From positions 1-6,722 of the forward strand of contig JACPHL010000074.1 in assembly GCA_016188625.1 (NCBI GenBank): 6,722 bases of DNA, written 5' to 3'. The stretch is from Candidatus Rokuibacteriota bacterium. Its GTDB lineage: Bacteria; Methylomirabilota; Methylomirabilia; Rokubacteriales; JACPHL01. Made by a program: the position numbers and the translations under genes. This document shows, in pieces, positions 4,243-6,722 of this stretch. How positions within the stretch are numbered: the first letter of the stretch is position 1; every line of letters starts with the position of its first letter. Under the pieces are notes generated by a model. It was not told the origin of the DNA. It saw nothing but the letters and a program-made list of their open reading frames with translations, and did not search any database.

Positions 4243-4515
4243 TCACTCCGCGGTCGTCGGATCGATCACCGACCTGACCTCCGAGATGCGGTTCGCCGGA
4301 AAGCCCCCTTGGCGGGCGTGCTCCCGCACCAGCTCGGGGCTGGGCGCGATGTACACGCAGTAGACCTTGTCGTCGGTGACGTAGCTCTCGACCCACTGGA
4401 TCTTGGGCCCCAGCTTGCCGAGGACGCTGCACGACTTCTGCGAAATCGCCCGGAGCTCCTCGGGAGACAGCTTCCCCGCGCCCGGAAGATCGCGCTCGAT
4501 CACGTACCTGGACAT
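4243..4515 (-). CDS. DUF4242 protein (SCO4226-like ferredoxin-fold), 90 aa
   Basis: The sequence MSRYVIERDLPGAGKLSPEE, then ISQKSCSVLGKLGPKIQWVE (residues 25-43) and DDKVYCVYIAPSPELVREHA (48-67), is typical of the DUF4242 family of about 90 residues. One studied member, Streptomyces SCO4226, is described as a nickel-binding protein with a ferredoxin-like fold. Cys29, Cys53 and His66 are possible metal ligands here, but metal binding is an inference. It ends GGFPANRISEVRSVIDPTTA plus Glu. The start is the ATG at 4515 because AAAGGAGAA lies just upstream; the same frame stays open to 4779, but the added leader is Pro/Arg-rich, has no family resemblance and would cross the end of amrS. It is followed 102 bases later by the DUF4440 gene on the same strand. 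Confidence 0.9.
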   Translation of the reverse strand: MSRYVIERDLPGAGKLSPEELRAISQKSCSVLGKLGPKIQWVESYVTDDKVYCVYIAPSPELVREHARQGGFPANRISEVRSVIDPTTAE

Positions 4516-4729: not shown

Positions 4730-6722
4730 TCAGTCCCAGCGGCCCGGGATCGGGGTCCGGCACTTGGGGCAGGCCCCACCCGGCAGGAGGTTGTACTGGA
4801 GGATCGTGTACCCGACCCGCTCGATGAGGAGGGCGCGGCAGCCCGGGCAGTAGGTGTTCTCGTACGGCCCGACCCGGCCCGGGAGGTTCCCCGCGTAGAC
4901 GTAGCGGAGGCCGGCCGCCACCCCGATCTCGGCGGCGCGGAGGAGGGTCCGGGCCTGGGTGTTCTCGCGGTCGGTCATCTTATAGTCCTGGTGGAAGGCG
5001 GTGACGTGCCAGGGGATCTCCGGCGAGACGGAGACGAGGAACCGGGCGATGTCGCCCAGCTCCTCGTCCGAGTCGTTGAATCCTGGGACCACCAGGGTGA
5101 CGATCTCGAGCCAGAACCCCATCGCCTGGATCCGGCGGATCGAGTCCAGCACGACCTGGAGGACGCCCCCGAGCTTCCGGTAGTGCTTGTCGTCGAACCC
5201 CTTGAGGTCCACCTTGTAGAGGTCCACCCAGGGGCGGATGTAATCGAGGACCTCGGGGGTCGCGTTGCCGTTACTGACGTAGGAGCAGACGAACCCCTGC
5301 GGCTTGGCCGCCCGGAAGACCTCCACGGCCCACTCCGAGGTGATGAGCGGCTCGTTGTAGGTGCTGGTGAGGATCCGCGCCTTGTAGCGACGGGCCAGGG
5401 CGATGACGTCCTCGGGCGTGACGTCCTGAGGCGGCGTCCCCGCGACCGGGTCGCGCAGGGCCTGCGAGGTCAGGTAGTTCTGGCAGTTCCCCACCGCGAC
5501 GAAGTTGGCGAGGTAGCTGTGGGCCCCCTCCACCTCGAGGTTGTAGACCCACCCCTCGAAGGGCTCCTCGCCGAGCGCGCGGATGGGGATGAGGAAGTGG
5601 GTGTCGGTCTCCAGGACCCGCCGGCGGATCGGCTCACGGTACCAGACCACGGTGTACTGCGTGGCCGCCTGGCGGACCGTTCGCCCTTCGATGACTTTCT
5701 CCTCGGGGAGCCGGCTCGGGTACACGGAGGGGAGGTACCCGAGGCGCAGGGCCAGCCACGCCACCCCGTAGGCGAGATCCTCCGAGACGGTGGTCAGGCT
5801 GACCTTGCCGTTCCGGTAAACATGCCCGTCGCCGGCCACGAAGGCGTCCAGGAACGCCTCCACCACCGAGGGGTCGGCCTCAAGGAGGACTGGCGGGACG
5901 CGCTTGGTCTCGGCCCGCTCCCCGCACAGGGTCGCGAGGACGAGGGCGAGGGAGCTCTTGCCGATAGTCACCGCGATCGAGGTCTTCCGGCGAACAACGT
6001 GAGGCTGGAGCCCGAAGACCTCGGCGAAGAGCCCCCGGACCTCCTCCGCCCGCGCGGCCTCGGTCGGGCCGAAGGTCAGAACCACCACCCGGCTGTTCGG
6101 CCGGTTCCTGGATCGAACCACGCACCCCTCCGCGCAGTAGTAGCCGAGGAGCCTCACGAGGGGCTTGTCCAGGGGCAGAACACGCGGAATGCCGGGCCGC
6201 CGCTCCATGTGGAAGCGGACGTGCTCTCCCTCGACTACGAGACCCCGCACCTGCTCGTAGACCCAAAGCCCCCGTCGCACCCGGCTCTGGACGTGGCGGA
6301 TGTAGGAGGGGTCCTTGCCAAAGCCCGCGCCGATCTCCCGCGAGGTCCGCCCTTCGCCCGTGGCGGTCATGATCGCTTCCACCTCGGCGGGGGTGAGCTT
6401 CCTCGGGACCCTGAAGGTGCGCGTGGTCCCGTCGAGCAGGGCGGCGACGTCGAGGGACGCCACCCCGGACCGCGGAAGCGGCTTGGGGACTGCCAGGTAG
6501 TGTTCCGGCGTGAGGGAGCGGGCCTCGACGAGGCTCGGCGGCACCGCCGGATCGGAGGTGGCGAAGACGCGATGATCGGGCGTGCACCTGACCGCCGGTA
6601 GGTAGTAGGGGGTGATGACCACCAGTCGGCCGTGGTAGGGATGGCGGAAGACCTGGCGGATCGGCGCCGGCAGGCCCTGGTGGGTCACCGCCTCCCAGCC
6701 CGGAAGAGGCGCGGCCTCCCCC
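4730..6722 (-). CDS. amrS: AmmeMemoRadiSam-system radical SAM enzyme, interrupted by an intein (5' partial)
   Basis: This is the C-terminal extein (251 residues, 5485-4730) plus most of an in-frame intein; the N-extein lies past 6722. After the splice junction comes CQNYLTSQ, matching the end of the family's CxxxCxxCQNW cluster motif, where three Cys bind a [4Fe-4S] cluster that cleaves S-adenosylmethionine. Further motifs are TYNEP (5362-5348), YVSNGNATPEVL, VDLYKVDLKGFDDKHYRKLGG, EIVTLVVPGFNDSDEEL and PWHVTAFHQDYKMTD. The C-terminus holds two CxxC pairs 22 residues apart (YCPGC, ACPKC), a zinc-ribbon-like end, then TPIPGRWD, as in this family. With about 90 N-extein residues the spliced enzyme would be near 340 residues, the usual size. 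The system's reaction is not established. The GTG at 6688 is not the true start: the frame is open to the window edge. Pyruvate formate-lyase activase-like enzymes are the nearest alternative. Confidence 0.9.
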   Translation of the reverse strand, partial: GEAAPLPGWEAVTHQGLPAPIRQVFRHPYHGRLVVITPYYLPAVRCTPDHRVFATSDPAVPPSLVEARSLTPEHYLAVPKPLPRSGVASLDVAALLDGTTRTFRVPRKLTPAEVEAIMTATGEGRTSREIGAGFGKDPSYIRHVQSRVRRGLWVYEQVRGLVVEGEHVRFHMERRPGIPRVLPLDKPLVRLLGYYCAEGCVVRSRNRPNSRVVVLTFGPTEAARAEEVRGLFAEVFGLQPHVVRRKTSIAVTIGKSSLALVLATLCGERAETKRVPPVLLEADPSVVEAFLDAFVAGDGHVYRNGKVSLTTVSEDLAYGVAWLALRLGYLPSVYPSRLPEEKVIEGRTVRQAATQYTVVWYREPIRRRVLETDTHFLIPIRALGEEPFEGWVYNLEVEGAHSYLANFVAVGNCQNYLTSQALRDPVAGTPPQDVTPEDVIALARRYKARILTSTYNEPLITSEWAVEVFRAAKPQGFVCSYVSNGNATPEVLDYIRPWVDLYKVDLKGFDDKHYRKLGGVLQVVLDSIRRIQAMGFWLEIVTLVVPGFNDSDEELGDIARFLVSVSPEIPWHVTAFHQDYKMTDRENTQARTLLRAAEIGVAAGLRYVYAGNLPGRVGPYENTYCPGCRALLIERVGYTILQYNLLPGGACPKCRTPIPGRWD
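5486..6722 (-). mobile_element. Large intein with LAGLIDADG homing endonuclease and HTH segment (N-terminal end outside window)
   Basis: An intein excises itself from the precursor protein; its endonuclease spreads the element. About 412 residues are visible. Numbering from the GTG at 6688: block B is GRLVVITPYYLPAVRCTPDHRVF (split: GRLVVITPYYLP 20-31, AVRCTPDHRVF 32-42) with the TxxH of the splicing centre at 36-39. A helix-turn-helix-like stretch follows at 98-140 (GRTSREIGAGFGKDPSYIRH). The first LAGLIDADG helix is LLGYYCAEG (180-188), block D is KRVPPVLLEAD (262-272), and the second LAGLIDADG helix is FLDAFVAGDG (279-288). Acidic Glu187 and Asp287 are kept, so the nuclease may be active. 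Block F is VYNLEVEGAHSYLAN (381-395) with His390, and block G ends FVAVGN before Cys402, the +1 nucleophile. The penultimate residue is Gly400 rather than His. Block A with the first Cys or Ser should lie 20-40 codons beyond the edge. Base composition matches the host, suggesting long residence. Confidence 0.93.

Follow-up and report, generated by a model that had tools for sequence, protein, structure and literature searches.

The window, 6,722 bp long, is a whole contig of a draft metagenome-assembled genome (MAG; 2.6 Mb, 344 contigs, 84% complete) of the Rokubacteria type (Methylomirabilota), and carries part of amrS, the gene for the radical SAM enzyme of the AmmeMemoRadiSam system. On the minus strand, positions 4730-6721 form a 663-residue open frame that runs off the contig end and reads ...HSYLANFVAVGN↓CQNYLTSQALRD across the junction between an intein (the first 412 residues) and AmrS (the last 251). 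Positions 5486 and 5485 flank this N↓C junction, VAVGN↓CQNYLTSQ. A first-pass annotation had placed an intein in AmrS immediately before the third cluster cysteine, and the junction, the match to the AmrS model TIGR04337 and the intein domains all agree with this placement; its start at 5470 located the intein correctly but took in 16 bases of extein.

The C-extein (4730-5485, minus strand), 251 residues and a stop codon, begins at the third cluster cysteine, the C of CQNYLTSQ, and matches PF04055 and TIGR04337, the latter with an E-value of 9e-55 between frame residues 411-663 and profile positions 84-334. Alone, it scores 186 bits against a TIGR04337 cut-off of 220. This cut-off is exceeded by the complete homologue L003 (262 bits), by the host L008 and by nine of the ten distant homologues tested, the tenth, L124, being truncated by its own contig. 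A Memo gene (PF01875) lies directly upstream of amrS in the relative L072, the side of the gene that is absent from the window. Downstream of amrS, the window encodes a nickel-responsive SCO4226-like protein (4243-4515, minus strand; PF14026). The plus-strand frame 3-1436 encodes an amidase (PF01425); it stays open to 1436, but the homology ends near residue 312, the C-terminal part being lost or frameshifted.

Intein motifs and class

The window ends inside the intein (5486-6722, minus strand), of which the C-terminal 412 of about 446 residues are present, without block A and Cys1, as judged from alignment to complete relatives. Upstream of the junction, the frame matches the Pfam families Intein_splicing, LAGLIDADG_3 and Hom_end and the NCBIfam model intein_Cterm (TIGR01443). 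Block B, CTPDHRV (6566-6586, minus strand), contains the TxxH signature of class 1 inteins as CTPDH, with T79 and H82 invariant in our intein alignment (A1). Blocks F and G, GWVYNLEVEGAHSYLANFVAVGN (5486-5554, minus strand; TIGR01443, E-value 1.5e-5), keep the block F histidine and end with the terminal asparagine, which is followed by cysteine (GN↓C); N446 and C447 are both invariant in A1. The third cluster cysteine must thus be the +1 nucleophile, as the first-pass annotation had proposed: its codon (5483-5485, minus strand) specifies, on the evidence of homologues and of the DNA at empty and filled sites, both the splicing nucleophile and the third ligand of the radical SAM CX3CX2C motif. 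Cys1, whose position lies beyond the end of the contig, is a cysteine in all complete homologues at the AmrS site. The penultimate residue is glycine instead of histidine in the window, and K, S, H, G, A or R in relatives, most of which carry Lys, Ser, Ala or Arg. A penultimate histidine is usual in class 1 inteins and not obligatory, and the other residues, although unusual, have precedents among other inteins.

The endonuclease is indicated by the LAGLIDADG_3 match (PF14528, E-value 4.9e-12) and by two LAGLIDADG motifs (AEG and GDG) with their acidic residues. The first, RLLGYYCAEG (6125-6154, minus strand), has an acidic residue that is invariant in A1; in the second, AFLDAFVAGDGH (5822-5857, minus strand), GDGH is invariant. 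Further upstream in the frame, a helix-turn-helix-like segment, TSREIGAGFGKDPSYIRHVQSRVRRG (6269-6346, minus strand), presumably serves DNA recognition; it corresponds to an overlapping HTH_38 match below the cut-off (E-value 0.02) and to helices in the AlphaFold2 model of the homologue L003. This model of the L003 precursor (mean pLDDT 77.9) matches the intein endonucleases 2cw7 (E-value 4e-24), 7qsu, 7qss and 1dq3 in fold, and its exteins match pyruvate formate-lyase activating enzyme and other radical SAM folds.

Complete homologues and distribution

A search with a complete homologue did not find the N-terminal half in the rest of the window's own assembly; with the MAG 84% complete, this half is probably absent from it. 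Both junctions are present in genomes of the same order, L003 (an 831-residue frame), L004, L005, L007, L008 and L009, which follow the pattern GCDxHCx(Y or F)↓C...N↓C(Q or H)N, as in LGCDYHCGY↓CMLGETPVL...CAVKN↓CQNFLTSQ. These complete relatives belong to Candidatus Rokubacteria, and the window's genome to another family of this order. A scan of GTDB genomes yielded 31 loci, some of them in these same genomes, with both junctions in one frame. In none of the complete homologues were block A or the first two cluster cysteines missing upstream, an absence that would have spoken against an intein. Excising the intein gives exactly the uninterrupted AmrS sequence, GCDYHCGYCQNxLTSQALRD, as found in the intein-free relatives, which read GCDYHCGYCQNFLTSQ; since excision restores the sequence of these relatives, chance is excluded. 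Empty and filled sites in close relatives have the same flanking DNA, with no bases gained or lost.

The complete homologues also leave the earlier view, that no cluster could be held before splicing, unsupported as it was put. In each of them the intein begins with Cys1, which stands directly in the place of the third cysteine, so that the precursor retains a C-X3-C-X2-C motif and the claim does not follow. A precursor lacking the third cysteine was accordingly rejected.

Two observations concern individual alleles. In L034/L010 (G044 C61), the AmrS intein is split in its endonuclease region by a frameshift into two overlapping frames, which is decay or an assembly error. The MAG G003 holds two different AmrS intein alleles on two contigs, L035 (a mini-intein, KN type) and L011 (THN type), which represent two genes or mixed strains.

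The GTDB scan, seeded with the intein alignment, returned 80 loci. AmrS is a widespread host: inteins at exactly this site occur in several groups of archaea and in bacteria of nine phylum-level groups. The bacterial hosts are Rokubacteria, Bipolaricaulota, Chloroflexi (including Thermoflexus and Anaerolineae), Acidobacteria, Latescibacterota, Omnitrophota and Armatimonadetes, together with one MAG titled Deltaproteobacteria and one Falkowbacteria MAG; the archaeal hosts include Diapherotrites, Micrarchaeota and Thaumarchaeota. Among 60 genomes of the window's order, counted by hand, Rokubacteria-type AmrS is found with the intein in 12 and only without it in six. Extein and intein histories conflict: L109 and L094 share 86% identity in their exteins and 40% in their inteins, and L098 and L111 share 89% and 43%, respectively. 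We conclude from these comparisons of sequences that two intein lineages replace each other at a single AmrS position in different phyla, which is what homing would produce. In several pairs the inteins show roughly two to three times the synonymous divergence of the C-exteins (partly saturated), which points to homing as well. The inteins are under purifying selection, with dN/dS of 0.13-0.26, and the mini-inteins L012, L035 and L133 (172-236 residues) have lost the endonuclease but keep their splicing blocks in frame; both observations are expected if splicing is needed. Occupation of the site in many groups, the exchange of lineages, the loss of the endonuclease in some copies and the selection on the inteins mark the insert as a genuine, mobile intein that appears competent for splicing.

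Probable splicing and its possible control

The reading that we favor, and regard as very likely correct, is that amrS carries a mobile class 1 intein, with a homing endonuclease of the LAGLIDADG type, whose insertion point lies immediately ahead of the third cluster cysteine codon, and that this intein would splice by the standard mechanism, as its conserved residues suggest. Against it we count that the N-terminal half lies outside the window, that the penultimate residue is Gly instead of the usual His, and that the window and its relatives come from MAGs. Cys1 would attack the preceding peptide bond, the +1 Cys would take over the N-extein by transesterification, and the terminal Asn would cyclize, after which an S-to-N shift would join the exteins and the +1 Cys would become the third [4Fe-4S] ligand. 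The endonuclease target would be one of the most conserved stretches of amrS, so that the site would be hit repeatedly and imprecise loss would destroy the enzyme. With its SAM barrel interrupted by about 446 residues, the unspliced precursor is very probably inactive.

Before splicing, Cys1 would mimic the third cluster cysteine and form a CX2C pair with Cys-3, which could possibly oxidize to a disulfide or bind metal and thereby delay splicing. Control of AmrS splicing by redox or metal state is plausible by analogy, and the better candidate pair for redox control would be Cys-3/Cys1 rather than the +1 Cys that the first-pass annotation had in mind. In such a redox-gated intein, compatible with our favored reading and adding a regulatory step to it, oxidizing conditions would stop splicing through a Cys-3/Cys1 disulfide, and the oxygen-labile AmrS would be matured only in a reducing cell. 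Cys-3 is present together with Cys1 in the complete homologues, and the CX2↓C spacing, seen in every one of them, equals that of the Cys-3/Cys1 disulfide of the Pyrococcus abyssi MoaA intein. However, both cysteines are forced by the insertion site, Cys-3 being itself a cluster ligand, so that their conservation is no evidence of selection for gating, and we hold this step to be a tentative proposal that has less than an even chance of being right. Considerably less probable, and unlikely in itself, is gating by the cluster, in which Cys1 and the first two cysteines of the precursor would together bind a [4Fe-4S] cluster (or Fe/Zn), leaving Cys1 blocked until the cluster is lost or moved: the precursor retains a complete CX3CX2C motif, but the active site of the intein, where Cys1 must sit, may have a geometry that does not permit ligation of a cluster. 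A non-splicing insertion or a decayed intein, which the non-canonical penultimate residue and the frameshifted L034/L010 could suggest, is rejected as very unlikely given the invariant catalytic residues, the low dN/dS and the mini-inteins that remain exactly in frame.

Related inteins and known systems

The genome from which the window comes encodes another radical SAM protein (L037:1542-4199, contig C149), PflX-like by its sequence, which carries a 177-residue mini-intein at the same third cysteine, with the junctions WCNLRCVF↓CFHPD...VAVGN↓CQNFDLSQ; its relatives L032 and L033 have a full-length intein that keeps the endonuclease. In IspG (GcpE) of Rokubacteria and of one relative of the same class (L073:154-2409, L075:202-2436, L076, L077, L078 and L085), an intein lies directly before the conserved cysteine of MGCEVNGPGEA, the third cluster ligand, as AVMG↓C...HN↓CEVNGPGEA. 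Related inteins are also found directly before the CGD cysteine of NifU-like scaffolds (HN↓CGD; L131, L143 and L163), before the second cysteine of CPGC in the beta subunit of 2-oxoacid:ferredoxin oxidoreductase (WCPG↓C...HN↓CGDFG; L146, L147, L153, L154 and L170) and directly before a conserved cysteine of a BcrAD/BadFG ATPase (L137). The invaded cysteines of IspG, NifU and the oxidoreductase are known Fe-S ligands of these enzymes. Other proteins, such as a deaminase and S-adenosylmethionine synthetase, contain related inteins too, and since the scan was seeded with the AmrS intein, no enrichment at Fe-S ligands can be claimed.

In a wider proposal, inteins would have invaded Fe-S ligand cysteines again and again as a general class of site (in AmrS, a PflX-like protein, Tes, MoaA, IspG, NifU and the beta subunit of 2-oxoacid:ferredoxin oxidoreductase), and a ligand set recreated by Cys1 would let cluster or metal occupancy or, where present, a Cys-3/Cys1 disulfide sense redox or iron state and control splicing. 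We regard it as speculative and improbable in this full form, although the repetition is worth a census. The AmrS site offers about thirty natural inteins, bacterial and archaeal, in which one cysteine would have to be first a splicing nucleophile and then a cluster ligand, its place being taken until then by a cysteine of the intein. The AmrS set thus makes the question of whether inteins are regulators or only parasites testable in a defined Fe-S setting, where intein-free sister enzymes can serve as controls.

The first-pass annotation was aware of no description of this site in AmrS, and our searches of a collection of open-access papers for intein with AmmeMemoRadiSam found no paper; those for Rokubacteri returned nothing, and those for NifU and 4Fe-4S nothing relevant by title. 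The equivalent site is nevertheless known, in MoaA and, through an NCBIfam model, in Tes. Like the AmrS intein, that of Pyrococcus abyssi MoaA has a radical SAM host and combines Cys1 with a Cys at -3; the spacing reported for it, together with what is known of MoaA, would place it at the third cysteine of CX3CX2C. In that intein, the native Cys-3/Cys1 disulfide acts as a redox trap that blocks splicing until reduced (Callahan et al. 2011, as cited in PMC3922620 and PMC10663303). The host, by contrast, belongs to the MoaA family, and redox control, shown for MoaA, would apply to AmrS by analogy only. Tetraether lipid synthase (Tes) likewise belongs to the radical SAM enzymes. To NF045703, the model of intein-containing Tes, Tes-like proteins that lack an intein align only up to, and again from, exactly the third cysteine of CX3CX2C (model position 611), indicating that Tes inteins lie at the same place as the AmrS intein, to which they are distantly similar; Tes differs in being another, archaeal, host family. 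The mycobacterial SufB intein, which is reported to be oxidation-sensitive (PMC8529194), shares an Fe-S-related host and a Cys+1 with the AmrS intein, but SufB is a cluster-assembly scaffold; a related intein in a Chloroflexi SufB (L151) is not at a radical SAM motif. PI-PkoII (2cw7) and TliVMA/PhoVMA share the splicing fold and the LAGLIDADG endonuclease, but their hosts and sites are unrelated and identity in the fold match is 14-18%. AmrS, which we did not find described as an intein host in the papers searched, is therefore a new host, whereas the kind of site, the third cysteine of the radical SAM motif, is already known from MoaA and Tes.
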